Under the pieces are notes generated by a model. The model had not been told where the DNA came from and made no database searches. It worked only from the letters and a program-made list of their open reading frames with translations. Positions 34,084-47,196 of a stretch of DNA of 64,000 nt are shown here, piece after piece. Within the stretch, counting starts at the first letter, position 1. Every line of letters starts with the position of its first letter. The stretch comes from Kineococcus xinjiangensis. Lineage in GTDB: Bacteria; Actinomycetota; Actinomycetes; Actinomycetales; Kineococcaceae. The position numbers and the translations under genes are program-made. The DNA lies in assembly GCF_002934625.1 (NCBI RefSeq), contig NZ_PTJD01000001.1, forward strand, positions 372,001-436,000. Reading direction: 5' to 3'.

Positions 34084-35238
34084 TCAGCCGCAGAAGACCT
34101 CCTCGAGCAGTTCCTGCTGGCCGCGGAACGCCCCCGCGTCGGGTGCGGTGGTGAGCGACAGCTCCAGCCGGGTCCGGGTGTGCGGGGCGCTCAGCGCCAG
34201 CGACGCGAAGCCGGGGATGCTCCCGCTGTGGCCCTCCACCACCGCACCGCAGCCGAGGGTGTCGCGCTGCAGGCCGAGCCCGTACGCCGGCGAGACGGGA
34301 GTGCTCCGGCGCATCTGCCGCAGCTGCTCGGCGGGCAGGAGCTCCCCGCCGAGCAGCGCCGCGAGGAAGCGGTCGAGGTCGGCGGTGGTGGACACCACCT
34401 CCCCCGCGGCCCAGGCGATGGAGGGGTCGAGCTCGGTGACGTCGACCACCTGCCCGGCGATCCGCTCGTAGCCGTGCGCGTGCGGGGAGGGCAGCGACTC
34501 CCGCCCGCCCGGCACGGACGTCGCGCGCAGTCCGAGCGGGGCGATGACGCGCTCCTCCAGCACCCGGCCGTAGGGCTTGCCCGTGACCGCCTCGACGAGC
34601 ATGCCGAGGACGACGTAGCCGGTGTTGGAGTATTCGAACCGGGTGCCGGGCTCGAACTCCAGCGGCCGGGAGGTGGCGAGGGCGACGAGGTCCTCCGGCG
34701 CGTGGTGCAGGTGGCGCAGCCGCTCGAACTCCTCGACCGAGGAGAGGGCAGGCGGGTCGATCGGCACGTGGTCGGTGTAGCTGACCAGGCCGCTGGTGTG
34801 CTGCAGCAGCATCCGGGCGGTGATCCGGTCCCCGTCCGGCAGCAGCCCCGGCAGGTGGCGGGAGACCGGCTCGTCGAGCGAGAGCCTGCCCTCGGCCGCG
34901 AGCTGCAGCACCACCGTGGCCACGAAGACCTTGGTGATGCTGCCGATGCGGAACCGGGCCTCGTGCGGCACGGGCTCCGCACCGTCGTGGCGGGCCGTGC
35001 CGGCGCGCAGCTCCAGCACCTGCCCGTCCCTGGTGATGCGGGCGATGACGCCCTGGGCCCCGGTGGCGGCGAGGCGGTCCAGCGACTCCTGCAGCAGCTC
35101 CGCGTCGATGCCGGGGAGGGCGGGGCCGGCTGCGGGTCCGGGGGGCGCCGCGCTGCAGGCGAGCAGGCTCGCGGCGAGGGCCGCGGCGACCGCGGCGCGC
35201 GCCCGCCACCGGGTCCCGCCGGTGCCCGCCCCGTGCAT
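34084..35238 (-). CDS. Secreted lipoprotein serine hydrolase (S12 family), paralogue 1
   Basis: A 384-residue beta-lactamase/D-Ala-D-Ala-carboxypeptidase-like protein. The signal peptide ends in a lipobox, SLLAC, with Cys28 as the likely lipid anchor. The active-site motifs are SITK in FRIGSITKVFVATVV, YSN in FEYSNTGYVVLGMLV, and HSG in VEGHSGSIPGF. It closely resembles the next gene upstream, so the two arose by tandem duplication. It starts with ATG six bases after TACCCT and lacks an RBS, which suggests its own leaderless transcript. Natural substrate unknown. Confidence 0.87.
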   Translation of the reverse strand: MHGAGTGGTRWRARAAVAAALAASLLACSAAPPGPAAGPALPGIDAELLQESLDRLAATGAQGVIARITRDGQVLELRAGTARHDGAEPVPHEARFRIGSITKVFVATVVLQLAAEGRLSLDEPVSRHLPGLLPDGDRITARMLLQHTSGLVSYTDHVPIDPPALSSVEEFERLRHLHHAPEDLVALATSRPLEFEPGTRFEYSNTGYVVLGMLVEAVTGKPYGRVLEERVIAPLGLRATSVPGGRESLPSPHAHGYERIAGQVVDVTELDPSIAWAAGEVVSTTADLDRFLAALLGGELLPAEQLRQMRRSTPVSPAYGLGLQRDTLGCGAVVEGHSGSIPGFASLALSAPHTRTRLELSLTTAPDAGAFRGQQELLEEVFCG

Positions 35239-35253
35239 CCGCTCAGGGTAGGA

Positions 35254-35290
35254 GCGGGCGGCGGGCTCGGACACACCGCCGGCCGCCCGC
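35254..35290 (-). terminator. Hairpin between the two serine hydrolase genes
   Basis: A 9-bp perfect stem (GCGGGCGGC with GCCGCCCGC) with a 19-base loop begins five bases after the stop of the upstream paralogue. The -10 of the downstream paralogue lies next to it. It probably separates the two transcripts. Confidence 0.45.
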
Positions 35291-35294
35291 CGGC

Positions 35295-36473
35295 TCAGGC
35301 GCAGAACGCCTCGTCGAGGAGCTCGGCGTAGCCGCGCAGCTCTCCCGCGTCCGGCGCCGACGTCAGCGAGACCACCAGGCGCTTGCGCGTGTCGGGAGTG
35401 CTGAGCACCAGGCTGGAGAAGCCGTGGATCCCGCCGCCGTGGCCCTGCACGGCCACCCCGCACTCCAGGGGGCCGCTCTCCACGCCGAGGCCGTAGCCGG
35501 GCGAGACGGCCGAGGTGCGCTGCATCTCGGCGAGCTGGGCGGGAGCGAGGACCCTGCCGTCGAGCAGGGCGTCGACGAACCGGTCGAGGTCGGCCGTGGT
35601 GGAGACCATCTCCCCCGCGGCGGAGGCGACCGACGGGTCCAGCTCCGTGACGTTGACCACCTGCCCGGCCACGCGCGCGTAGCCGTGGGCGTGGCGGCCC
35701 GGCAGGTCGGTGCGGTCGCCGGGGACGGAGGTGGAGCGCAGGCGCAGCGGGTGGAGGATGCGCTCCTCCACTGCGCGGTCGTAGGGCTGCCCGGTGACCT
35801 CGGCGACGAGCATGCCGAGGACGACGTAGCCGGTGTTGGAGTACCTCCAGCCCGTCCCCGGTTCGAAGTGCAGGGGGTGCTCCGCGGCGAGCGCGACGAG
35901 CTCGGCGGGTTCGACGCGGCGGTCGAGCGAGGCCTTGAACTCCGCGACGCTCGTGTACTGCGCGGGGTCGAGGGGGAGGTGGTCGGTGTAGTTCGCCAAG
36001 CCGCTGGTGTGCTGCAACAGCATCCGGACGGTGATGCGGTCGCCGTCCGGCAGGAGGCCCGGCAGGTAGCGGGACACGGGGGCGTCCAGTTCCACGCTGC
36101 CCTCGCCCACGAGCTGGAGCACCACGGTGGCGACGAAGGTCTTGGTGATGCTGCCGATGCGGAACGTCCCCCGTCGCGGCACCGGACGGCGGCTGTCGAT
36201 CTCGGCTGTGCCGCTGCGGAGCACCACCTGGCGGTGGCCGTCGGTGATGCGGACCTGCACCCCCTGCGCTCCCGAGGCGGCCATCTCGTCGAGTGCGCGC
36301 TGCACCGCGGCCCGGTCGATGCTGCGGGGGCCCGCGGCGCGGTCGGCGCTCCTCGTCGTGGGCGCGGCCTGCGCGGCCGCCGGGCCGGCGGCCTGCACCG
36401 TCAGCGCCCCGGTGCCCATCATCGCGGCGGTGAGCGCTCCCGCCAGGCGCCGCCTGCTCCTCGTGGTCCTCAT
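35295..36473 (-). CDS. Secreted serine hydrolase (S12 family), paralogue 2
   Basis: A 392-residue paralogue of the gene at 34084. It has a Sec-type signal (MRTTRSRRRLAGALTAAMMG then Ala-rich) with AQA as a possible cleavage site and no lipobox Cys, so it is probably soluble and exported. The motifs are SITK (FRIGSITKTFVATVV), YSN (WRYSNTGYVVLGMLV) and HGG (VQGHGGGIHGF). Long matched stretches with its neighbour include LPGLLPDGDRIT and RMLLQHTSGL. Family members are D-Ala-D-Ala carboxypeptidases, esterases or beta-lactamases; none can be assigned here. Confidence 0.87.
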   Translation of the reverse strand: MRTTRSRRRLAGALTAAMMGTGALTVQAAGPAAAQAAPTTRSADRAAGPRSIDRAAVQRALDEMAASGAQGVQVRITDGHRQVVLRSGTAEIDSRRPVPRRGTFRIGSITKTFVATVVLQLVGEGSVELDAPVSRYLPGLLPDGDRITVRMLLQHTSGLANYTDHLPLDPAQYTSVAEFKASLDRRVEPAELVALAAEHPLHFEPGTGWRYSNTGYVVLGMLVAEVTGQPYDRAVEERILHPLRLRSTSVPGDRTDLPGRHAHGYARVAGQVVNVTELDPSVASAAGEMVSTTADLDRFVDALLDGRVLAPAQLAEMQRTSAVSPGYGLGVESGPLECGVAVQGHGGGIHGFSSLVLSTPDTRKRLVVSLTSAPDAGELRGYAELLDEAFCA

Positions 36474-37521: not shown

Positions 37522-40179
37522 TCAGCGCGCGGAGGTGGTCACCGACCGCACCAGCGGGGCGAGCTGGAAGGCGTCGACGTTCGGCGCGTTCCCGGACGGG
37601 TTCCCGAAGCGCAGGGCACCGGTGTCCGTGGTGAGGGTCAGCGGGACGTTGCGGGTCCAGAAGTTGTAGTAGCTGTAGTTGTGCCGGAACCTGCCCGTCA
37701 CCGCCGCAGCCGCGCCGCCGACCTCGCTGACCTGCGCCGTCCGCGTGATGACGTCGGTGTTGTAGGCGTGCCCGGTGTTCTTCTCGGCGTTGCCGTAGCG
37801 GACCAGCAGGTTGTAGTCGCCCCGCGGGGTGCCTGCCGGACGGGCGACGGTGAGGGTCCGCCCGGCCGTGATCCAGCCGGCGTACTGACCCTGGACGTTC
37901 GAGCCGTAGCCGGCGGCGGGGGTCTCCACGGTGACGCCCGCACTGCGGGTGACGGCGCTGCTCTCGGCCTGGATGGTGCGGACCGAGGAGTCGGCGCCGG
38001 GGTTGCGGGTGACGCGGACCCCCTCGACCTCGACGCCGGCGATGCCCCCGATCCTCAGCTGCTGCACGCCGCGGGCGAGGTGGACCGTGGCGGTGGACGA
38101 CCAGCGGCCCGCCCCGGTGGACCTCAGGCCGCGGACCGTGCGGCCGTTGAGCGTGGTGGACAGCTCCGTCGCCGACGGGGTGGCGTGGTCCACCGTGACG
38201 TCGTAGTAGCCGTCGTCGGCGGCGGCGAGGAAGAACTCGGTCGATCCGCCCGTCCCCAGGCGCACCGTGCCCGCGTAGGCGCCCTGGCCGGCCAGGACGG
38301 TCGTGGAGCCGGAGCGGCGCGCGGTCACGGCCGGGTACCGGGCGCTCTCCACCCCGGCCACCTCGGTGAGGTCGAACTTGTCGATCGACAGGTCGCTGCC
38401 CGGCAGGGAGGTGGCGCCTCCGTCGGCGCTCGTGCGCACCGACAGGTGGTGCGTGCCCGCCGACAGCCGCACCGGGACGGTGACCTGGCCCCGGTACAGG
38501 TGGTTCAGCGTGCTGGTGTACTGGATCGTCTGGTCGAGCGCCCCGTCCACGTAGAGGGCGTGGCGGCCGGTGAGGACGTTGTGGTCGTCGCCCGCCAGCC
38601 GTCCGCCCGTCCCGTAGGTGACCGTCAGGTGGTACGACCCGGTGCGCGGGACCGTGACGGGGAAGGTGACGGCGGCCGTGGGCGAACCCAGGCTGCCGAC
38701 GTCGCGCGCCCCGGACATGGCGTTGACGAAACCGGTGTGCGGACCGTAGGCGCGTGCGCCCCCGCTCAGGGCGGCGCCCTCGGCCTCCACGGAGACCTGC
38801 CAGGGCTGGTCCACGGTGAGGGCCGCCGATCCGGCCGGCGTCACGATCACCCGGTAGGCGTCCATCGGGTCCCCGCCGGGGAGGTTGACGGTGGCGCCGC
38901 CGGTGCTGCTGAGCGTGGAGCGCTGCGTCTTCACGGTGCGGGGCTGCGTCGAGAAGCCCTCCTGCCCCGTCCAGTCGGCCCGCTCGACGCGCACGTCGAC
39001 GCTGCTGCCGAAGACCGTGCGGTCCAGGCCGGTGAGGTTGAGGGCGACGCTGTCGGCGGTGCCGCCCACCAGGACGCTCGCCTGCCTGGCGCTGCGGTCC
39101 ACGGCGGCCAGTCCCTGCACGGTGCCGGGGGTGTTCGGCTGGGGCGGGGTCAGCCGGACCGTCTCGCCCGTGAGGTCGCGGTACCACTTCAGCAGCCACC
39201 AGCCGCCGTTGGCCCCGTTGGCCTGGGCGGTGTGGTCGTTGAGGTTGCCGGCGTAGCCCCAGTAGGCGAGCTGGCCGTCCACCTTGGCGTTCTCCAGCAT
39301 GGAGATCCACTGGATCATGCGTCCGGGGACGCTCGTGTCGTGCTTGCCCGCGTACTCGGTGATGTTCACCGGGCGCGGGCTGATGCCGAGCTCCCGCTCG
39401 ATCCGGCGGTAGTCCGCGAGGTGCGCGGGGAAGTCGCGCAGGTCCACGTCGTCCAGCTCGTGCCAGGTGGTGATGTCGGGCAGCACGCCGTTGGCCTTGG
39501 CGAAGGCCAGGAAGTCCCGCAGGCGACCGGAGTTGTACTGCGACTCCCCCGTCGCGGCGATCCGCGCGTTCGGGACGATGCGCCTGATCTCGGCGTGGGC
39601 GGCCTTCCAGTCCGCGAAGAACTGGGCCTTGCGGTTCGTCCAGTCGCCGTACCAGATCCAGTCGGGCTCGTTGAACGGCGTGAAGACGTACCTGTCGAGG
39701 GTCCCGGGCGCCGCCCCGTCCTTGGTGCGCTGGACGACCTCGCGGACCTTCGCGAGGTAGTCCGCCTGACCGGGGTAGGTGTTGGACGGCACCCCGGCGT
39801 TGGCGTAGCCCCACTGCGGGTACTGGTCCTGGATGTTGACGTAGATGTCCTGCGTGCCGGCGTCGAAGAGGGTCCGGGAGGACGTCAGCGCGCCGCCGTT
39901 GGGGTGCTGCAGGCCACCCTCCGGCATCTGCGTGACCGTCCGGGGGGCCGCACCGGCGACGACGGCCCTGGTCGGGACGTCGTCGTCGCTGACGCCGTAG
40001 AGCATCCCCGTGGCGCCGCCGTGCACCGGGCCGGTGCGGGCGGCGAAGTCGACGGAGACGGTCACCGTCGCCGCCGCGGCGGGGCTCACCGCCAGGGCGA
40101 CGGGCCCGACGAGTCCGGCGACGAGGACGGCCGCCGCCGTCCTGAGGGGCTTCCGGGACTGCCTGCGGGCAGCGGACAT
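37522..40179 (-). CDS. Secreted clan-A-like glycoside hydrolase with CBM6/35-like modules
   Basis: An 885-residue exported enzyme. The signal peptide covers residues 1-37. A TIM-barrel-like catalytic part follows (about 40-400), with Glu171 in FTPFNEPDWIWYGDW as the probable acid/base and Glu275 in VNITEYAGKHD as the probable nucleophile, a spacing typical of clan GH-A (GH39/GH5-like). Then come a small beta domain and two carbohydrate-binding-like modules of CBM6/35 character (about 435-570 and 740-880), the last with VDAFQLAPL. The exact GH family is not certain. The RBS is GGAGG before ATG. As last gene of an alpha-galactosidase/ABC operon it probably opens a galactose- or arabinose-containing polymer outside the cell. 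Confidence 0.75.
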   Translation of the reverse strand: MSAARRQSRKPLRTAAAVLVAGLVGPVALAVSPAAAATVTVSVDFAARTGPVHGGATGMLYGVSDDDVPTRAVVAGAAPRTVTQMPEGGLQHPNGGALTSSRTLFDAGTQDIYVNIQDQYPQWGYANAGVPSNTYPGQADYLAKVREVVQRTKDGAAPGTLDRYVFTPFNEPDWIWYGDWTNRKAQFFADWKAAHAEIRRIVPNARIAATGESQYNSGRLRDFLAFAKANGVLPDITTWHELDDVDLRDFPAHLADYRRIERELGISPRPVNITEYAGKHDTSVPGRMIQWISMLENAKVDGQLAYWGYAGNLNDHTAQANGANGGWWLLKWYRDLTGETVRLTPPQPNTPGTVQGLAAVDRSARQASVLVGGTADSVALNLTGLDRTVFGSSVDVRVERADWTGQEGFSTQPRTVKTQRSTLSSTGGATVNLPGGDPMDAYRVIVTPAGSAALTVDQPWQVSVEAEGAALSGGARAYGPHTGFVNAMSGARDVGSLGSPTAAVTFPVTVPRTGSYHLTVTYGTGGRLAGDDHNVLTGRHALYVDGALDQTIQYTSTLNHLYRGQVTVPVRLSAGTHHLSVRTSADGGATSLPGSDLSIDKFDLTEVAGVESARYPAVTARRSGSTTVLAGQGAYAGTVRLGTGGSTEFFLAAADDGYYDVTVDHATPSATELSTTLNGRTVRGLRSTGAGRWSSTATVHLARGVQQLRIGGIAGVEVEGVRVTRNPGADSSVRTIQAESSAVTRSAGVTVETPAAGYGSNVQGQYAGWITAGRTLTVARPAGTPRGDYNLLVRYGNAEKNTGHAYNTDVITRTAQVSEVGGAAAAVTGRFRHNYSYYNFWTRNVPLTLTTDTGALRFGNPSGNAPNVDAFQLAPLVRSVTTSAR

Positions 40180-40233
40180 GGTTCCTCCACGGTGCGGTTC
40201 GCGATCGGTGACCGGTCGGCGCGGGGGCGTGCC

Positions 40234-40263
40234 GCCCGGCTGCTGGCGCCGCAGCAGCCGGGC
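40234..40263 (-). other. Intercistronic hairpin after the sugar-binding lipoprotein gene
   Basis: A perfect 12-bp stem (GCCCGGCTGCTG with CAGCAGCCGGGC) with a 6-base loop begins eight bases after the binding-protein stop. Such hairpins often stabilise the mRNA of abundant binding proteins and lower expression of the next gene, here the secreted glycoside hydrolase. Confidence 0.55.
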
Positions 40264-40271
40264 GTGGAACA

Positions 40272-41618
40272 TCACTGGAAGAGCGCGTTGACCTGCTCGT
40301 TGGCCTCGGTCAGGGAGGACGCGTCCGCCTCGCCCGCGAGCACCGCGTCCATCGCCGGCCCCATGATCGCCGCGATCTCCGGCGCGTGGTCCGTGATCGG
40401 GTAGAGGTGGGTGGCCCCCTCCTCGATGGGCAGGGTGAAGGCGGAGACGTCCACGCCCTTGGCGGCGAACTCCTCCTCCGCGACCTCGAGCGCCTCGGGC
40501 AGCGACGGGAAGACGACCGCGGCCTCGGCGACCTTCTTCTGGCAGTCGGCGGAGGCCAGGTGCTCCACCCACTTCCAGGCACCCTCCTTGTCGTCGGTGC
40601 CCGCGTAGATGGAGTCCGCCACCCCGTTGAAGATGGTGGCGCGCTCCCCGGAGGGGCCGACCGGCACGGGGGCGACACCGACGTCGACGCCGTCGTAGCC
40701 GAAGTAGCTGCCGATCATCCACGAGCCGTTGGTGCTGAGGGCGTACTTGCCCGCCCCGAAGGCGTCGTTGACGCTGACGCCCGCGCGGGAGGTGGCGAGG
40801 TCGGGCATGTAGCCCTTGTCGATGAGGCCCTTGAACCAGGCGATGGTGGCCTGGAAGCGCGGGTCGTCGTACTGGAACTCGGAGCCCCAGGGGTTCTCGT
40901 CGGTGAACTGCCAGCCGGTGCTGAGGGCGTACATGCTCCAGATCTGCTGGCCCACGCCCGCGCCGTTGTTCTCGTCCAGGCCGAGACCGTAGACCTCGAC
41001 CTTGGACTTGTCGAAGCCCGGCTCGTCGCCGCGGACGCCGTTGGCGTCGACCGTCAGGTGGGCGATGAGGTCCTCGTAGGTGCCGCCGTCCTCGGGGTTC
41101 CAGGTGAGGTCGGCGAGGGTGGACTCGTCGACGCCCGCCTCGGCGAGGAGGTCCTTGTTGTAGAAGATGCCGATCGTGTCGAAGTCCTTGGGCAGCCCGT
41201 AGCGCTTGCCGTCCTGGCTCACCCAGACGTCCGCGAGGCCCTCGGGGTAGACGTCCGTCGAGATGCCGGCCTCCTCGACCTGCTCGTCGATGGGGAGGAT
41301 CTGGTTCTTCGCCGCGAAGGTCGGGTAGTAGTTGAGGTGGTTCACGAACACGTCGGGCGCGTTGCCCGCGACGAGACCCGTGGTGATCTTGTTCCAGTAG
41401 TCGGCCCAGCCGAACTGCTCGATCTTGATCTTGGTGCCCGGGTTCTCGGCCTCGAAGGCCGTGGCGCACGCCTGGTACGCGGGAACCTGGTTGGAGTCCC
41501 ACAGCCAGTAGGTGAGCTCGCCGTCGGCCTGCCCGCTCCGCGCGTCCCCGGAGCCGCAGGCACCGACGGCCAGGGGCAGCAGCGCAGCGGCCGCGGCCAG
41601 ACGCAGGGTCTTCTTCAC
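40272..41618 (-). CDS. Sugar ABC transporter substrate-binding lipoprotein
   Basis: Extracellular family-1 solute-binding protein of 448 residues. The lipobox AVGAC places the lipidated Cys at residue 21. The mature protein starts ELTYWLWDSNQVPAYQACATAFEAENPGTKIKIEQF, typical of the CUT1 (maltose-type) class that binds oligosaccharides. It delivers substrate to the two permeases encoded upstream in the operon. The start is ATG. The substrate is inferred to be an alpha-galactoside or related oligosaccharide from the GH36 partner. Confidence 0.93.
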   Translation of the reverse strand: MKKTLRLAAAAALLPLAVGACGSGDARSGQADGELTYWLWDSNQVPAYQACATAFEAENPGTKIKIEQFGWADYWNKITTGLVAGNAPDVFVNHLNYYPTFAAKNQILPIDEQVEEAGISTDVYPEGLADVWVSQDGKRYGLPKDFDTIGIFYNKDLLAEAGVDESTLADLTWNPEDGGTYEDLIAHLTVDANGVRGDEPGFDKSKVEVYGLGLDENNGAGVGQQIWSMYALSTGWQFTDENPWGSEFQYDDPRFQATIAWFKGLIDKGYMPDLATSRAGVSVNDAFGAGKYALSTNGSWMIGSYFGYDGVDVGVAPVPVGPSGERATIFNGVADSIYAGTDDKEGAWKWVEHLASADCQKKVAEAAVVFPSLPEALEVAEEEFAAKGVDVSAFTLPIEEGATHLYPITDHAPEIAAIMGPAMDAVLAGEADASSLTEANEQVNALFQ

Positions 41619-41678: not shown

Positions 41679-42629
41679 CTACTTGAGGCCGGAGAACTGG
41701 ATCGAGTCGACGATCCGGCGTCCGAAGGCGGCGAAGAGAGCGATCATCGGGAGGGCCGCGAGCAGGGTCGCGGCCATCAGGCCCGCCCAGTCGGGACTGC
41801 CCTGCGGGGTCTGGGACCGGAAGATCCCGAGCGCGACGGTGAGGACGCGCACGTCCTCCTCCTGCCCGACGAGCAGGGGCCAGAAGTACTCGTTCCAGGA
41901 CGTGATGTAGACGAGCAGCGCGAGGGTGGACAGGGGCGCCGCGCTCATCGGCAGGATGATGCGGAAGAAGATCCGCACGTGGCCGGCCCCGTCGATCTTG
42001 GCGGCTTCCTCGATCTCCCTGCTGAGGCCGAGGAAGAACTGCCGGAGGAAGAACACCGCGAACGGCGTCATGAAGAAGAAGGGCAGGATGATCGCAGCAT
42101 AGGTGTTCAGCAGGCCGAGCCTCTGCATGAGCACGAAGTTCGGCAGCGCGGTGAAGATCGGCGGGATCATCAGCGCGGTGAGGAAGGCGAAGAACACCGC
42201 CTCCCTCCCCGGCCAGCGCAACCGGGCGAAGGCGTAGGCCGCCATCGCGCTGAACAGCACCTGCCCGACCGTGATGACGGAGGAGGTGAGGACGGAGTTC
42301 CACAGATAGCGCCAGAAGTCGATGGAGGCACCGGAACCGCCCTGCGCCCGCGCCTCCTCCAGCGTCGCCAGCCCGAGGACGCGCCGGAACGCCCCGAAGG
42401 TCAGATCGGCCGGCAGCAGGGACCCGGCGCCGGCCGCCAGCGCTCGGTTGTCCGACAGGGAGATGCGCAGCATCCAGTAGAAGGGGAACAGCGTCAGCAG
42501 CACCAGGGCGGCCAGCGCAACCCAGGCCAGCGCGCGCTGCCAGCGGATCCCGCGCCTGCGGGGCTTCCGCTGCGCAGGGGCGGAGGGGGCGGCCAGGCGC
42601 CCGGTGGGGTTCTCCTGCACGAGAGTCAT
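41679..42629 (-). CDS. Sugar ABC permease, MalG type
   Basis: CUT1-family inner-membrane permease (316 residues) with six helices. The EAA loop that docks to the ATPase is EIEEAAKIDGAGHVRIFFRIILPMS. The first helix follows a basic N-terminus (RALAWVALAALVLLTLFPFYWML). A periplasmic insert after helix 1 is rather long (about residues 60-110). ATG 42629, ten bases after the stop of the partner permease, is preferred; a GTG ten codons earlier overlaps that gene. It pairs with the MalF-type permease. Confidence 0.92.
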   Translation of the reverse strand: MTLVQENPTGRLAAPSAPAQRKPRRRGIRWQRALAWVALAALVLLTLFPFYWMLRISLSDNRALAAGAGSLLPADLTFGAFRRVLGLATLEEARAQGGSGASIDFWRYLWNSVLTSSVITVGQVLFSAMAAYAFARLRWPGREAVFFAFLTALMIPPIFTALPNFVLMQRLGLLNTYAAIILPFFFMTPFAVFFLRQFFLGLSREIEEAAKIDGAGHVRIFFRIILPMSAAPLSTLALLVYITSWNEYFWPLLVGQEEDVRVLTVALGIFRSQTPQGSPDWAGLMAATLLAALPMIALFAAFGRRIVDSIQFSGLK

Positions 42630-42639
42630 GGGATCAACC

Positions 42640-43578
42640 TCAGTCCAGGTCCGAGTCACCGGCGCGCAGGATCTTCACCTGCGCGAGGGCGACGCCCGCG
42701 AGGATCACGAACAGCACCACGCACAGGGCCGCCGCGTACCCGAAGTCGAACTGCTGGAACGCCTTCTCGTAGATGTAGTAGTAGATGACGCGGGTCGAGT
42801 CGATCGGCCCGCCCTTGGTGGTGACGGCCACGGTGTCGAAGATCTGGAAGGACCCGATGACCGTCAGCACGAGCACCAGCACGAGCACCGGCCGCAGCAG
42901 CGGCATCGTGATGCGCCAGAAGATCCGCCACTCGGAGGCGCCGTCGATCGCCGCGGCCTCGTAGACGGAGGACGGGATGGACTGCAGCCCGGCGAAGATC
43001 AGCAGCGCGGTGTAGCCCATGTGCCGCCACACGTTGACCAGGGCGATGGTGGGGATGGCGGTCGAGGTCTCACCGAAGAACGCCACCGGGTCGAGCCCCA
43101 CGAGCTCCAGGCCGCTGTTCACGATCCCGAGTTGCGCGTCGAGCATCGTGTACCAGACGAGCGCGACGACCACGTTGGCCACCAGGTAGGGAAGCAGCAG
43201 CACGCCGCGGATCAGCGTCGACTTCGTGAGCCGGTGCATCAGCACCGCCAGCGCGAGGGCGACCACCGTCTGCACGCCGATGTTGATGACGACGTACTCG
43301 AGGGTGACCGTCAGCGACTTCCAGAACCTGCGGTCACCGAGGACCTCGGCGTAGTTCTGGACCCCCACCCACTCCGGGGGCGCCAGCAGGCTGTAGTCGG
43401 TGAAGCTGAGGTAGAAGGTCCGCAGCGCCGGCCAGGCGTAGAAGGTGACGAACCCGAACGCGGCGGGCAGCAGGAACAGGAGGGCGGGCACCAGGTCCTG
43501 GCGGGAGCGGCCGGCGCGCAGCCGGGCGGCCGGGCGCTCGGTGGCGGACGGCTGCTGGGGGGCGACGGCGACGCTCAC
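42640..43578 (-). CDS. Sugar ABC permease, MalF type
   Basis: CUT1-family permease of 312 residues with six helices. The EAA loop is SVYEAAAIDGASEWRIFWRITMPLL. The N-terminus begins QDLVPALLFLLPAAFGFVTFYAWPALRTFYLSF, as usual for this class. The GTG start overlaps the alpha-galactosidase stop (GTGA), so expression is coupled to it. No ATPase gene is present in the operon; actinobacterial CUT1 systems commonly share one MsiK ATPase. Confidence 0.92.
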   Translation of the reverse strand: MSVAVAPQQPSATERPAARLRAGRSRQDLVPALLFLLPAAFGFVTFYAWPALRTFYLSFTDYSLLAPPEWVGVQNYAEVLGDRRFWKSLTVTLEYVVINIGVQTVVALALAVLMHRLTKSTLIRGVLLLPYLVANVVVALVWYTMLDAQLGIVNSGLELVGLDPVAFFGETSTAIPTIALVNVWRHMGYTALLIFAGLQSIPSSVYEAAAIDGASEWRIFWRITMPLLRPVLVLVLVLTVIGSFQIFDTVAVTTKGGPIDSTRVIYYYIYEKAFQQFDFGYAAALCVVLFVILAGVALAQVKILRAGDSDLD

Positions 43579-45821
43579 GGACGGGGCTCCCTCGTGACGT
43601 GCAGCAGGAGCGTGTGCTCGGGGTGCTGCGGGGGGACCTGGACGCCGACGCGGGAGAGCACCCGCCCCGGCAGGGAGGCTCCCTCGGCGAGCCAGGGCAC
43701 CTGGACGATCGCCGTCGACGGCGGCACCCCGGCGGGACCGGCGACCCGGACCCGGTAGCGCGCGTCCGGGTCGAGGCCGGGCAGGCAGAGCCGCCCCGGC
43801 GTCGTCGTGACGCAGGTGGCCGTCGAGACGACGGCGAAGAGCGCCTGGGAGCCGTCGGCGGCGAGGACGCCGTGGACGTCGGTGGCGGCGCCGGCCGGGT
43901 CCGCGCGCACCACGCGGCCGGTGTGCAGCCAGTCGCGGACGCTCTTGTAGAGGGCCACCCACTGCCGCAGCTCGCGACGCTCGTCCTCGTCGGCCGCGGT
44001 GAGGTCCCACTCGATGCCGAAGCTGCCGAAGAGGGCGGTGGCGGCGCGGAAGGACAGGTCGTGGCGGCGGCCGGTGGTGTGGGACCGGCCGGCGCCGACG
44101 TGCGAGCCGATCATCTCCGGGGGCAGCAGCAGGCCGGTCCAGCGCTGGACCGACTGCCGCTCCAGCGCGTCGATGCAGTCGCTGGCCCAGACGCGGTCCG
44201 TGCGCTGCAGGATGCCGAGGTCGACCCGCGCCCCTCCGGAGGAGCAGGACTCGACCTCCAGGCGCGGGTGGCGGCGGCGCAGCTCGTCGAGCAGGCGGTA
44301 GACCGCCAGGGTCTGCCGGTGGACCGCCGCGACCCCCGTGCGCGAGGAGCCGGCGTCCACGAGGTCGCGGTTGTGGTCCCACTTGAGGTAGTCGAGGGCG
44401 TACTCGCTCACGAGGGCGTCGAGGCGTCCGAGGACGTGCGCGAAGGCCTCGTCGCGGGTGAGGTCGAGGACCTGCTGGGAACGCACGAGCGGCGGCGTGC
44501 GGGAGCCGGTGGAGAGGATCCAGTCCGGGTGACGGCGGATCAGCTCGGAGTCGGGGTTGACCATCTCCGGCTCGACCCAGAGCCCCATGCGCATGCCGCG
44601 GGAGCGGACGTGCTGCACGAGCGGGTGGAGGCCGTGCGGCCAGACCCGCTCGTCGGCGAACCAGTCGCCGAGCCCGGCGGTGTCGTCGCGACGTCCGCGG
44701 AACCAGCCGTCGTCCAGCACGAACAGCTCGGCGCCGACCTCGGCCCCGCGGTCGGCGAGCGCCGTGAGCCGGTCCAGGTCGTGGTCGAAGTAGACGGCCT
44801 CCCAGGTGTTCATCACGACCGGCCGGGGCCGGCGGGGGTGGTGGGAGCGGGCGCGCAGGTGCGCGTGGAAGCGCGCCGACATCTCGTCCAGGCCCTCGCC
44901 GCAGGAGGCGTAGACCCAGGGGGTGGTGTAGCTCTCCCCCGGGCCCAGCGCGACCTCGCCGGAGAGCAGCAGCTCCCCGCCGCCGATGACCGCCTCACCG
45001 GTGGGCAGCCGCTCGGCGTAGGTGCGGTGGTTGCCGCTCCAGCCGACGTGCAGGCCCCACACCCGCCCGCTGCGGAAGCCGAAGCCCTCCTCCCCCGCGA
45101 CGAGGACGAGGGTGGCGTCGGAGCCGGTGCGCCCGCGGCGGCTGTCGCGGACGTGGGCGTCGACGCCGAACGGCCTGCGCTGCGGGGAGCGCTCCCGCCC
45201 CCAGCGCCCCGTGAGGTCGAGGACCTCGGTGGCGGAGCCGGGCAGCGGGAGGGCCAGGACGAGCCCGTCGAGCCGGTAGGGCGTGCGGCCGCCACCTCGC
45301 ACGGCGGCGTCGGTGAGGGTCGCGCGCATCCGCAGCAGCCCCTCCGCCGTGAGCTCGAGCAGCAGGTCCAGCTCGAGGAGGGCGTCGGGGTCGACCGCCT
45401 CGACCCGCAGGCGGCCGCCGGTGGCGTCCTCCGCGCGGCTGGCGGTGACGGAGACCGTCACGAAGGAGGGCGACCAGTCCCGGCCGTCGCGCGAGCCCAG
45501 CAGGCCCGGCAGCCCCGCCCAGCCGGCGGCGTGCTCCGGCAGGACGGTGACGGGCAGCGGCTCGTCGAGGCCGTTGGGCACGACCGGCGGGGCGGAGACG
45601 GCGGCGAGGGCGGCGAGGTCGTCGGCGCCCAGGTCACCGAGGTCGGCGCCCCAGTGCAGCACGCGGGGCAGCCTCGCGCCGCGGCAGTCGACGACCAGGC
45701 TGACGCCGGCGGCACTGAGGTGGACCACGCTGCCGGCCGCGCCGAGCTCCCCGTCGGTGCTGCGGGGCGCCACCGAGCCGGCGGGCACGTCGCCGGTCCT
45801 TCGGGCGGGTGCGGTGGTCAC
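43575..45821 (-). CDS. Alpha-galactosidase, family GH36
   Basis: A 748-residue GH36 enzyme that removes terminal alpha-galactose from oligosaccharides such as raffinose, melibiose or galactomannan fragments. An N-terminal beta-supersandwich is followed by the TIM barrel: NTWEAVYFDHD, FVLDDGWFRGRRDD, GLWVEPEMVNPDSEL. Nucleophile Asp482 lies in YLKWDHNRDL and acid/base Asp548 in VWASDCIDALERQ. There is no signal peptide, so it should act in the cytosol on imported sugar. The start is GTG with GGAGGAG upstream. It is the first gene of the operon, facing the LacI gene across the operator region. Confidence 0.94.
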   Translation of the reverse strand: MTTAPARRTGDVPAGSVAPRSTDGELGAAGSVVHLSAAGVSLVVDCRGARLPRVLHWGADLGDLGADDLAALAAVSAPPVVPNGLDEPLPVTVLPEHAAGWAGLPGLLGSRDGRDWSPSFVTVSVTASRAEDATGGRLRVEAVDPDALLELDLLLELTAEGLLRMRATLTDAAVRGGGRTPYRLDGLVLALPLPGSATEVLDLTGRWGRERSPQRRPFGVDAHVRDSRRGRTGSDATLVLVAGEEGFGFRSGRVWGLHVGWSGNHRTYAERLPTGEAVIGGGELLLSGEVALGPGESYTTPWVYASCGEGLDEMSARFHAHLRARSHHPRRPRPVVMNTWEAVYFDHDLDRLTALADRGAEVGAELFVLDDGWFRGRRDDTAGLGDWFADERVWPHGLHPLVQHVRSRGMRMGLWVEPEMVNPDSELIRRHPDWILSTGSRTPPLVRSQQVLDLTRDEAFAHVLGRLDALVSEYALDYLKWDHNRDLVDAGSSRTGVAAVHRQTLAVYRLLDELRRRHPRLEVESCSSGGARVDLGILQRTDRVWASDCIDALERQSVQRWTGLLLPPEMIGSHVGAGRSHTTGRRHDLSFRAATALFGSFGIEWDLTAADEDERRELRQWVALYKSVRDWLHTGRVVRADPAGAATDVHGVLAADGSQALFAVVSTATCVTTTPGRLCLPGLDPDARYRVRVAGPAGVPPSTAIVQVPWLAEGASLPGRVLSRVGVQVPPQHPEHTLLLHVTREPRP

Positions 45822-45867: not shown

Positions 45868-45898
45868 ATTGATCGTTCCATGGAATTGAACGTTCCAT
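45868..45898 (-). promoter_or_regulatory. Two LacI-type operator repeats upstream of the galactoside operon
   Basis: On the minus strand ATGGAACGTTCAAT (45898-45885) and ATGGAACGATCAAT (45881-45868) differ at one base and are spaced 17 bases apart. Each has the near-palindromic TGGAACG-centred form of LacI-family operators. They lie 47-77 bases before the GH36 start. Two more AGTTCCAG half-like copies occur at 45931-45948, toward the divergent lacI gene. The promoter hexamers themselves were not identified with confidence. Confidence 0.65.
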
Positions 45899-46098
45899 GA
45901 GAGTGCCATCGGTCCGGGCCGCCGTCAACGAGTTCCAGCAAGTTCCAGGCGGCACATTTACCGATCAACGGAACTCGTGGCGGACAGGGTCGAAGACGCC
46001 GGACTCCGCAGCCCCGGGGCTAGCATCGGAGCCCCGGCACCGGCCGGGCTGCGCACGGGCGAGGACGCCGGCGCGGCAGGACGAGCGGAGGCGGCGCA

Positions 46099-47139
46099 GT
46101 GCCCGAGACCCGGACTCCCGCAAGGACGCCCCGCCGCAGCGGCCGCGTCAGCATCGTGGACGTCGCGGCCGCCGCCGGGGTCTCGCGCCAGACGGTGTCC
46201 AACGTCCTCAACGGGCGCAAGGAGTACTACTCCGAGGACACCCACTCGCGGGTCATCGCCGCCATGGACTCCCTCGGGTACCAGCCGAACCGGGCCGCGC
46301 AGAGCCTGCGGTCGCAGCGCAGCATGCAGATCGGCTGGCACATCTTCGGCGAGCAGTTGCAGGCCATGCGCGGCTTCACCCTGCAGTTCCTCCAGGCGCT
46401 GGTGAAGGCCACCTCCGACGTCGACCACCACCTCGTGGTGTTCACCCACCACGACGACGATGCGCTGCAGGTGTTCAAGGACCTCGTGGCCCGGCGCACC
46501 GTGGACGCGGTGATCCTGTCCGAGTCCGGCGTGGACGACGAGCGCGCCCGCTTCCTCGCCGAGCACGGGCTGCCCTTCGCCTCCTTCGGCCGGCTCGCCC
46601 CGGACCTGCCCCAGCACTGGGTCGACATCGACAACGCCGCGGGCATGCACCCCCTCGTCGACCACCTCGTCTCCGCCGGGCACCGCCAGTTCGCCTACAT
46701 CGGCGCCGAGGGGGGCGAGTTCTGGAAGGCGGAGCGCCTCGAGGGCTTCCGGACGGCCCTGGCCGAGCACGGCCTGCGCGTCCCCGCGAACGCCGTCCTG
46801 CACGGCGACGACGCCGCGGTCCGCGCACACACCCGCCGCCTGCTGGCGCGCCGCAACCGCCCCACCGCCATCGTCGCCGGCAACGACGCGATCGCCGCCG
46901 TGGTCGTCAACGTGGTGCACTCCGTCGGCCTGCGCGCCGGCCGGGACGTCGCCGTGACCGGCTTCGACGGGGGCGCCATCGGCCTGTTCACCGAACCGAC
47001 GCTCACCAGCGTCCGGATACCCGTCGAGCGCATCGCGCGGGAGCTCGTGGACCGCTGCCTCCGGCAGGTGCGCGACGGGGCCGTGGACGGCCCCGGCCTG
47101 CTGGTCCCCACGGAGATCGTCCGCGGCGGCAGCGCCTGA
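46099..47139 (+). CDS. LacI-family transcriptional repressor of the galactoside operon
   Basis: A 346-residue regulator. The N-terminal helix-turn-helix reads VSIVDVAAAAGVSRQTVSNVLNGRKEYYSEDTHSRVIAAMDSLGYQPN with the minor-groove hinge helix RAAQSLRSQRS. The rest is a periplasmic-binding-protein-like sensor (residues about 75-346), with PTAIVAGNDAIAAVVV and VAVTGFDGGAIGLFTEPTLTSVRIP. The recognition helix SRQTVSNVLNG is typical. GTG start, GGAGG upstream. It is divergent from the GH36/ABC operon, so it is the likely repressor, released by a galactoside or galactose. Confidence 0.93.
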   Translation: MPETRTPARTPRRSGRVSIVDVAAAAGVSRQTVSNVLNGRKEYYSEDTHSRVIAAMDSLGYQPNRAAQSLRSQRSMQIGWHIFGEQLQAMRGFTLQFLQALVKATSDVDHHLVVFTHHDDDALQVFKDLVARRTVDAVILSESGVDDERARFLAEHGLPFASFGRLAPDLPQHWVDIDNAAGMHPLVDHLVSAGHRQFAYIGAEGGEFWKAERLEGFRTALAEHGLRVPANAVLHGDDAAVRAHTRRLLARRNRPTAIVAGNDAIAAVVVNVVHSVGLRAGRDVAVTGFDGGAIGLFTEPTLTSVRIPVERIARELVDRCLRQVRDGAVDGPGLLVPTEIVRGGSA

Positions 47140-47167
47140 CGGACCGCTGCACGCGCCGGGCACCGCG

Positions 47168-47196
47168 GTGACGTAGCGCTGCCGGGCGGCTACGCT
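47168..47196 (+). promoter_or_regulatory. Probable leaderless promoter of the M15 peptidase gene
   Basis: GTGACG (47168-47173) and TACGCT (47191-47196) are separated by 17 bases, and the ATG follows six bases after the -10. No RBS precedes the ATG, so the transcript probably starts at or next to the start codon. Confidence 0.55.

Follow-up and report, generated by a model that had tools for sequence, protein, structure and literature searches.

A probable GAfase-type GH39 hydrolase of Kineococcus xinjiangensis and a specificity residue that tracks GH36 type across actinobacterial loci

Two bifidobacterial enzymes of glycoside hydrolase (GH) family 39 release different disaccharides: GAfase liberates alpha-D-Gal-(1->3)-L-Ara and AAfase beta-L-Arap-(1->3)-L-Ara (Gal, galactose; Ara, arabinose; Arap, arabinopyranose). 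A single residue, Asn119 in GAfase and Tyr116 in AAfase, decides between them; the substitution N119Y turns GAfase into an AAfase-type enzyme, and the two activities overlap (PMC10688797). In Bifidobacterium longum JCM7052 and B. pseudocatenulatum MCC10289 the GH39 gene is clustered with genes for a GH36 enzyme, a LacI regulator, a sugar-binding protein (SBP) and permeases, and the GH36 partner of AAfase is a predicted beta-L-arabinopyranosidase (PMC10688797). The structural reference for both enzymes is N2152, a GH39 alpha-L-(beta-1,2)-arabinofuranobiosidase (PMC10688797). No report of GAfase, AAfase or the residue rule outside Bifidobacterium was found among the open-licence papers listed. 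Here we analyse a 64-kb stretch of the Kineococcus xinjiangensis genome (64,000 nucleotides of contig NZ_PTJD01000001.1; hereafter the window), in which one gene encodes an 885-residue protein that is most likely a secreted GAfase-type GH39 enzyme removing alpha-D-Galp-(1->3)-L-Ara from arabinogalactan side chains. GAfase activity itself is known from gut bifidobacteria; of greater interest is the recurrence of the switch at the decisive residue, here position 115, together with matching helper genes. The gene and its parts are as follows, in window coordinates.

37522..40179, - strand: GH39-branch hydrolase gene, predicted GAfase-type, secreted-looking, 885 amino acids
40072..40179, - strand: signal-peptide-like N-terminus, about residues 1-36, judged by eye
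38833..40068, - strand: catalytic domain and beta domain, residues 38-449, from model and structure comparison
39835..39837, - strand: codon of N115 in the -2 subsite, counterpart of GAfase Asn119, AAfase Tyr116 and N2152 Glu110
39667..39669, - strand: codon of E171, predicted acid/base (motif FNEPDW), by analogy with AAfase Glu190
39355..39357, - strand: codon of E275, predicted nucleophile (motif ITEYAG), by analogy with AAfase Glu315
38362..38799, - strand: module 1, CBM35-like beta-sandwich, about residues 461-606, Pfam score below cut-off, structure match
38002..38346, - strand: module 2, small beta domain, about residues 612-726, from predicted structure
37525..37980, - strand: module 3, CBM35-like, about residues 734-885, matches CBM35 2wz8

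The protein belongs to the N2152/GAfase/AAfase branch of GH39, because sequence and structure matches both single out the same two solved chains. In a phmmer search of the PDB, 8uwt (E 2.9e-51) and N2152 (5u22; E 5e-50) match the whole catalytic part, N2152 over residues 43-449, and in VIA-align they reach Z 46.8 (391 residues, 32% identity) and Z 46.4 (root-mean-square deviation 2.1 over 394 residues, 31% identity), the chain ranked next standing at Z 25.9. The N2152 of 5u22, from Neocallimastix frontalis, is presumably the NF2152 of PMC10688797. 8uwt is a GH39-like enzyme from a xylan-utilisation locus that resembles the window protein in fold; no paper naming the entry was found. A new GH family was rejected because the protein resembles N2152 and 8uwt strongly over the full domain; an ordinary GH39 beta-xylosidase, a GH30 and a GH44 enzyme were rejected too, the listed chains reaching Z 26 at most. 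The window protein has no Pfam match at cut-off and no NCBIfam match; PF01229 does not match it and matched only one of 34 aligned proteins (E 0.001), and therefore hardly covers this branch.

A first-pass annotation of the gene had assigned it to clan GH-A, which is borne out by the barrel fold with two catalytic Glu in the model and in the structure matches, and had left the family without a confident name. The structure comparison that it proposed supplies that name, with the GH39 relatives N2152 and 8uwt at Z 46.4-46.8 and GH30 chains at Z <= 26. Its candidate new specificity gives way to a predicted activity of the known GAfase type, to which family, N115 and gene cluster all point. As evidence against novelty it had named a strong match to a characterised subfamily: the match to N2152 and 8uwt does cover the whole catalytic domain, but identity is only 31-32% to these and 41-44% to bifidobacterial relatives, so that we infer the substrate. 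Five Bifidobacterium homologues, taken as stand-ins for GAfase and AAfase themselves, are 31-33% identical to the window protein over the aligned gene and 41-44% over the catalytic part. By this proxy it misses the 57% level of the "Bifidobacterium GH39s", which share 57-75% identity with AAfase (PMC10688797), and the enzyme may be GAfase-like in its working and yet lie outside that clade.

The AlphaFold model (mean pLDDT 89.7, pTM 0.91; pLDDT below 50 at residues 1-32), from which the module borders were taken, shows a catalytic unit at about 38-449, followed by beta-sandwich modules at about 461-606, 612-726 and 734-885. E171 and E275 lie where the first-pass annotation placed them, at a measured spacing of 104 residues where about 100 had been given, and both are invariant in an alignment of 34 sequences, the window's included; many further residues are likewise invariant in this alignment, which takes in the Bifidobacterium homologues. 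The start codon, ATG at 40179, is immediately preceded by GGAGGAACC, the stop lies at 37522, and the N-terminus resembles a signal peptide by eye, in keeping with the secreted look claimed earlier. The two carbohydrate-binding-like modules of that claim correspond to the CBM35-like modules 1 and 3, the middle module being taken as its small beta domain. The CBM_35 model matches 28 of the 34 aligned proteins, module 3 matches 2wz8 by sequence (E 9.3e-07) and by structure (Z 17.7, residues 732-875), and when the C-terminal part is modelled separately (pLDDT 92.2) modules 1 and 3 match CBM35 structures. 2wz8 is described as a CBM35 that binds D-galactose (PMC9843283) and as one that binds the alpha-Gal of galactomannan (PMC7939473). 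Nor is the layout unusual, as had been thought: AAfase from B. pseudocatenulatum MCC10289 combines a signal peptide, a GH39 domain and three galactose-binding-like regions (PMC10688797), and resembles the window protein in these and in its gene set. GAfase is described as cell-wall anchored (PMC8939339), whereas the window protein has no anchor by eye.

By the published numbering, the specificity residue stands eight positions before a named Trp (PMC10688797), and N115 stands eight residues before W123. In the alignment N115 is opposite the Glu of N2152 and the Tyr or Asn of the Bifidobacterium homologues, and the nearest relative found (57% identity) also has Asn at this position. These observations bear on an alternative, namely that the enzyme is an alpha-L-(beta-1,2)-arabinofuranobiosidase like N2152, which ranks with 8uwt as nearest among solved structures and has the same fold and, on our reading, the same disaccharide-releasing mode. 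N2152, however, has Glu at the -2 position where the window protein has Asn, accepts another -2 sugar and linkage, and in its solved chain (403 residues) lacks the beta-sandwich modules; moreover, the GH36 encoded nearby is of alpha-galactosidase type and would have no evident use for arabinobiose. We regard this alternative as highly improbable.

The genes around the hydrolase form a cluster in the order LacI (+) followed, on the - strand, by GH36, two permeases, SBP and, last, GH39:

46099..47139, + strand: LacI-family regulator, divergent
43575..45821, - strand: GH36, alpha-galactosidase type, 748 amino acids, GTG start
42640..43578, - strand: ATP-binding cassette (ABC) permease, UgpA/MalF type, whose GTG start overlaps the GH36 stop
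41679..42659, - strand: ABC permease, UgpE/MalG type (Pfam, NCBIfam)
40272..41618, - strand: ABC SBP, with lipobox-like LAVGAC

Another frame considered for the regulator, 45897-47168 (+), is the wrong frame and has no Pfam match. The window, with types assigned by sequence, contains the full GAfase-type set of GH36 alpha-galactosidase, LacI, SBP and permeases, and it shares this cluster, the GH39 branch, the Glu pair and Asn at -2 with B. longum GAfase, from which its sequence is distant (31-33% overall and 41-44% catalytic, via the bifidobacterial homologues). Among solved structures the window GH36 is closest to the alpha-galactosidases AgaB and AgaA (337 bits, AgaB best). The NCBIfam BAD_1528 beta-L-arabinopyranosidase model scores it at 99 bits and the other four alpha-galactosidase-type GH36 proteins tested at 99-114 bits; five tested GH36 partners of GH39 genes with Tyr at the specificity position score 553-621 bits, all these values lying below the model's cut-off of 1100, so that none is a certified equivalog. 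Asn at position 115 beside an alpha-galactosidase-type GH36 leads us to predict a GAfase-type enzyme.

An AAfase-type enzyme, releasing beta-L-Arap-(1->3)-L-Ara, would occupy the same GH39 branch and keep the same gene set, and the overlap of the two activities speaks for it. It is nonetheless distinctly unlikely, since the window lacks both AAfase marks, having N115 instead of Tyr and a GH36 that is not BAD_1528-like, and since another gene of the same genome fits the AAfase role better. Two GH39 genes occur in K. xinjiangensis beyond the window's (labels beginning with C and L are our own for contigs and loci). One, C2:44297-46642, is of Tyr type and lies behind a BAD_1528-like GH36 in one uninterrupted frame of 1522 codons (L144:9228-13793, -). 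The junction shows no visible signal peptide, Pfam detects the Melibiase part, and a LacI gene adjoins. Fusion in a single frame ties both enzymes to one pathway, and the product is possibly an all-in-one enzyme for Arap-Ara; at the other close GH36/GH39 pairs checked (L080, L100 and L106) a stop codon intervenes. Given the Asn-type window gene and this Tyr-type fusion, the organism probably handles both Gal and Arap side-chain caps. The other gene, C2:101351-103879, is a member of a remote GH39 subfamily; no GH36 was detected in the 20 kb analysed.

The association between residue 115 and GH36 type extends well beyond this genome. We compared 134 GH39 genes from 131 loci, the window included, comprising the best 80 of 432 relatives and stretches of further genomes; L203-L205 were excluded from this larger count as duplicates of L140, L128 and L137, and both GH39 genes of L069, which have one GH36 in common, were counted. 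GH36 type beyond the tested proteins was assigned by the higher score among a few reference GH36 proteins. A GH36 lies within 8 kb, our criterion for pairing, of 105 of the 134 genes. It is of alpha-galactosidase type beside all 23 Asn genes, the window's among them, and of beta-L-arabinopyranosidase-like type beside 80 of the 81 Tyr genes and the one gene with Met. When the gene behind the one discordance, L260_12622, was left out of a column scan (it is kept in the 134-gene count) on account of its remote subfamily and of a GH36 held in common with an Asn gene, position 115 with its Asn was the sole perfect single-residue marker of GH36 type in 104 genes and 846 columns (40-885); the next best column separated the types at 93%. 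B. aesculapii L063, tried as a further exception (a Tyr gene with an alpha-galactosidase-type GH36), was dropped, a BAD_1528-like GH36 lying nearer. At L150, L154 and L155 the specificity position holds Met or Leu; the GH36 of L150 is BAD_1528-like, and L154 and L155 have no detected GH36.

The transporter follows the same division. Of the 23 Asn genes, all but that of L132 have an SBP of the window's family within 8 kb, at 49-100% identity in 20 cases (the window's among them) and at 33-34% in two; where the GH36 is of the other type, only three of 81 genes do (L252-L254, 34-35% identity). A search starting from the SBP gave 30 loci, built from 34 places; at five of the 29 loci other than the window a GH39 lies within about 1.5 kb. 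All five are Asn-type, and they fall into the five Asn groups that we delimited from the tree.

Trees were built without column 115 by a quick method, with some rows on long branches, after near duplicates, remote outliers and unreadable rows had been omitted (13 from a first tree, 23 from a larger one). Residue 115 changes at least six times. In the first tree residue and GH36 type agree in five of five independent pairs (sign test, p = 0.0625), and 168 of 200 random pairings on the larger tree likewise give five of five, the other 32 giving four agreeing pairs and one uninformative (p 0.0625-0.125 across the pairings). Sampling enlarged in search of a sixth independent pair left the count at five. 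The catalytic part of the Asn gene of L189, which has an alpha-galactosidase-type partner, is 86-89% identical to those of four Tyr genes, each with the other GH36. Import module and hydrolase seem to have different histories, GH39 genes and import modules having apparently recombined: between L153 and the window the catalytic GH39 parts are about 39% identical, and SBP, permeases and GH36 65-76%. The SBPs of L153, L258, L259 and L260 are 69-71% identical to the window's, their GH39 proteins being far more distant.

Position 115 is likely to act as a one-residue toggle, switched on at least five occasions in actinobacteria together with a matching GH36, the Asn form nearly always with the same kind of transporter; Asn would serve arabinofuranosyl side chains capped with Gal and Tyr those capped with Arap, and the change could run in either direction. 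Several observations weigh against this account or against its extension to the window gene. The sign test rests on five pairs (p = 0.0625, and 0.125 in 32 of the 200 pairings). The Tyr gene L260_12622 has an alpha-galactosidase-type GH36 as its nearest, and that GH36 also adjoins an Asn gene; at this locus the Asn-type GH39 (2951) and the remote-subfamily GH39 (12622) flank it on either side. For 29 of the 134 genes (22 Tyr, 3 Asn, 4 other or unread) no GH36 was detected within 8 kb, and these genes say nothing for or against the pattern. Identity to the five bifidobacterial homologues is low, as given above. The window gene and the Asn gene of B. aesculapii sit in separate parts of the tree; by parsimony their shared Asn is therefore parallel rather than inherited, and the window Asn was acquired separately from that of GAfase. 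Finally, 24 of the 29 other SBP-family loci have no GH39 within about 1.5 kb, and the transporter may therefore serve alpha-galactosides generally.

This last point also favours a further alternative, that a GH39 gene was added to a general alpha-galactoside uptake operon and that its product has a new specificity, for some other alpha-galactosylated furanoside or polymer. An operator-like palindrome, described below, that also stands upstream of a PL11 rhamnogalacturonan lyase gene counts in its favour too, as a hint at pectin. The Glu pair and the many residues invariant from the window to the Bifidobacterium homologues, together with a residue 115 that tracks GH36 type as the bifidobacterial rule predicts, make this alternative unlikely.

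For a GAfase-type enzyme the following pathway is proposed. The secreted, retaining exo-enzyme would act outside the cell on alpha-L-arabinofuranosyl side chains of arabinogalactan (arabinogalactan proteins such as gum arabic) or on similar pectin decorations. From these it would release an intact disaccharide, in all likelihood alpha-D-Galp-(1->3)-L-Ara. Arabinofuranose would occupy subsite -1 and the Gal cap subsite -2, next to N115, with E171 as acid/base and E275 as nucleophile. The SBP and two permeases would take up the disaccharide, the GH36 alpha-galactosidase would cleave it inside the cell, and LacI would sense the sugar. A hydrolase without a name would become part of a testable side-chain pathway in a non-bifidobacterial actinobacterium, and a specificity rule drawn from a few bifidobacterial enzymes would extend to many genera as a parallel residue change with partner genes. 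If the toggle account is true, GH36 type predicts GH39 specificity, and vice versa, across actinobacteria; the rule could help to annotate genes on which Pfam is silent and provide enzymes for the analysis of arabinogalactan proteins.

Two non-coding features may concern regulation of the cluster:

45868..45899, unstranded: two operator-like sites CATGGAACGWTCAAT (CATGGAACGATCAAT and CATGGAACGTTCAAT), just upstream of GH36
40233..40264, unstranded: perfect 13-bp inverted repeat between the SBP and GH39 genes, RNA fold of the spacer z -2.09

When up to three mismatches are allowed, the window has four matches to the operator-like sequence, none of them outside these two sites, where 0.27 would be expected. 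Across the genome the 13-base core, with at most one mismatch, recurs at one other place, the perfect palindrome ATGGAACGTTCCAT at C3:317159, about 100 bases upstream of the gene for a secreted-looking protein of about 1915 residues (L273:10159-16009 for palindrome and gene). This protein has a GDSL esterase domain, an Fn3 domain and a rhamnogalacturonan lyase 11 (PL11) domain, which suggests a link to pectin. In the roughly 600 bases that precede the GH36 match, no CG-centred 16-mer is common to most of the other Asn loci, and L259 alone has a similar operator-like site. The inverted repeat is possibly an RNA hairpin and could set different levels of SBP and GH39 protein.

Downstream of the GH39 gene, at a distance of 249 bases, lies a gene for a secreted-looking ricin-type beta-trefoil lectin (PF14200; 36686-37273, -), which may be part of the sugar-capture unit of the hydrolase. 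Beyond it, at about 34100-36473 (-), two similar genes stand in tandem and belong to the serine beta-lactamase / D-Ala-D-Ala carboxypeptidase family; the one at 35295-36473 matches PF00144, and its partner was assigned by eye.
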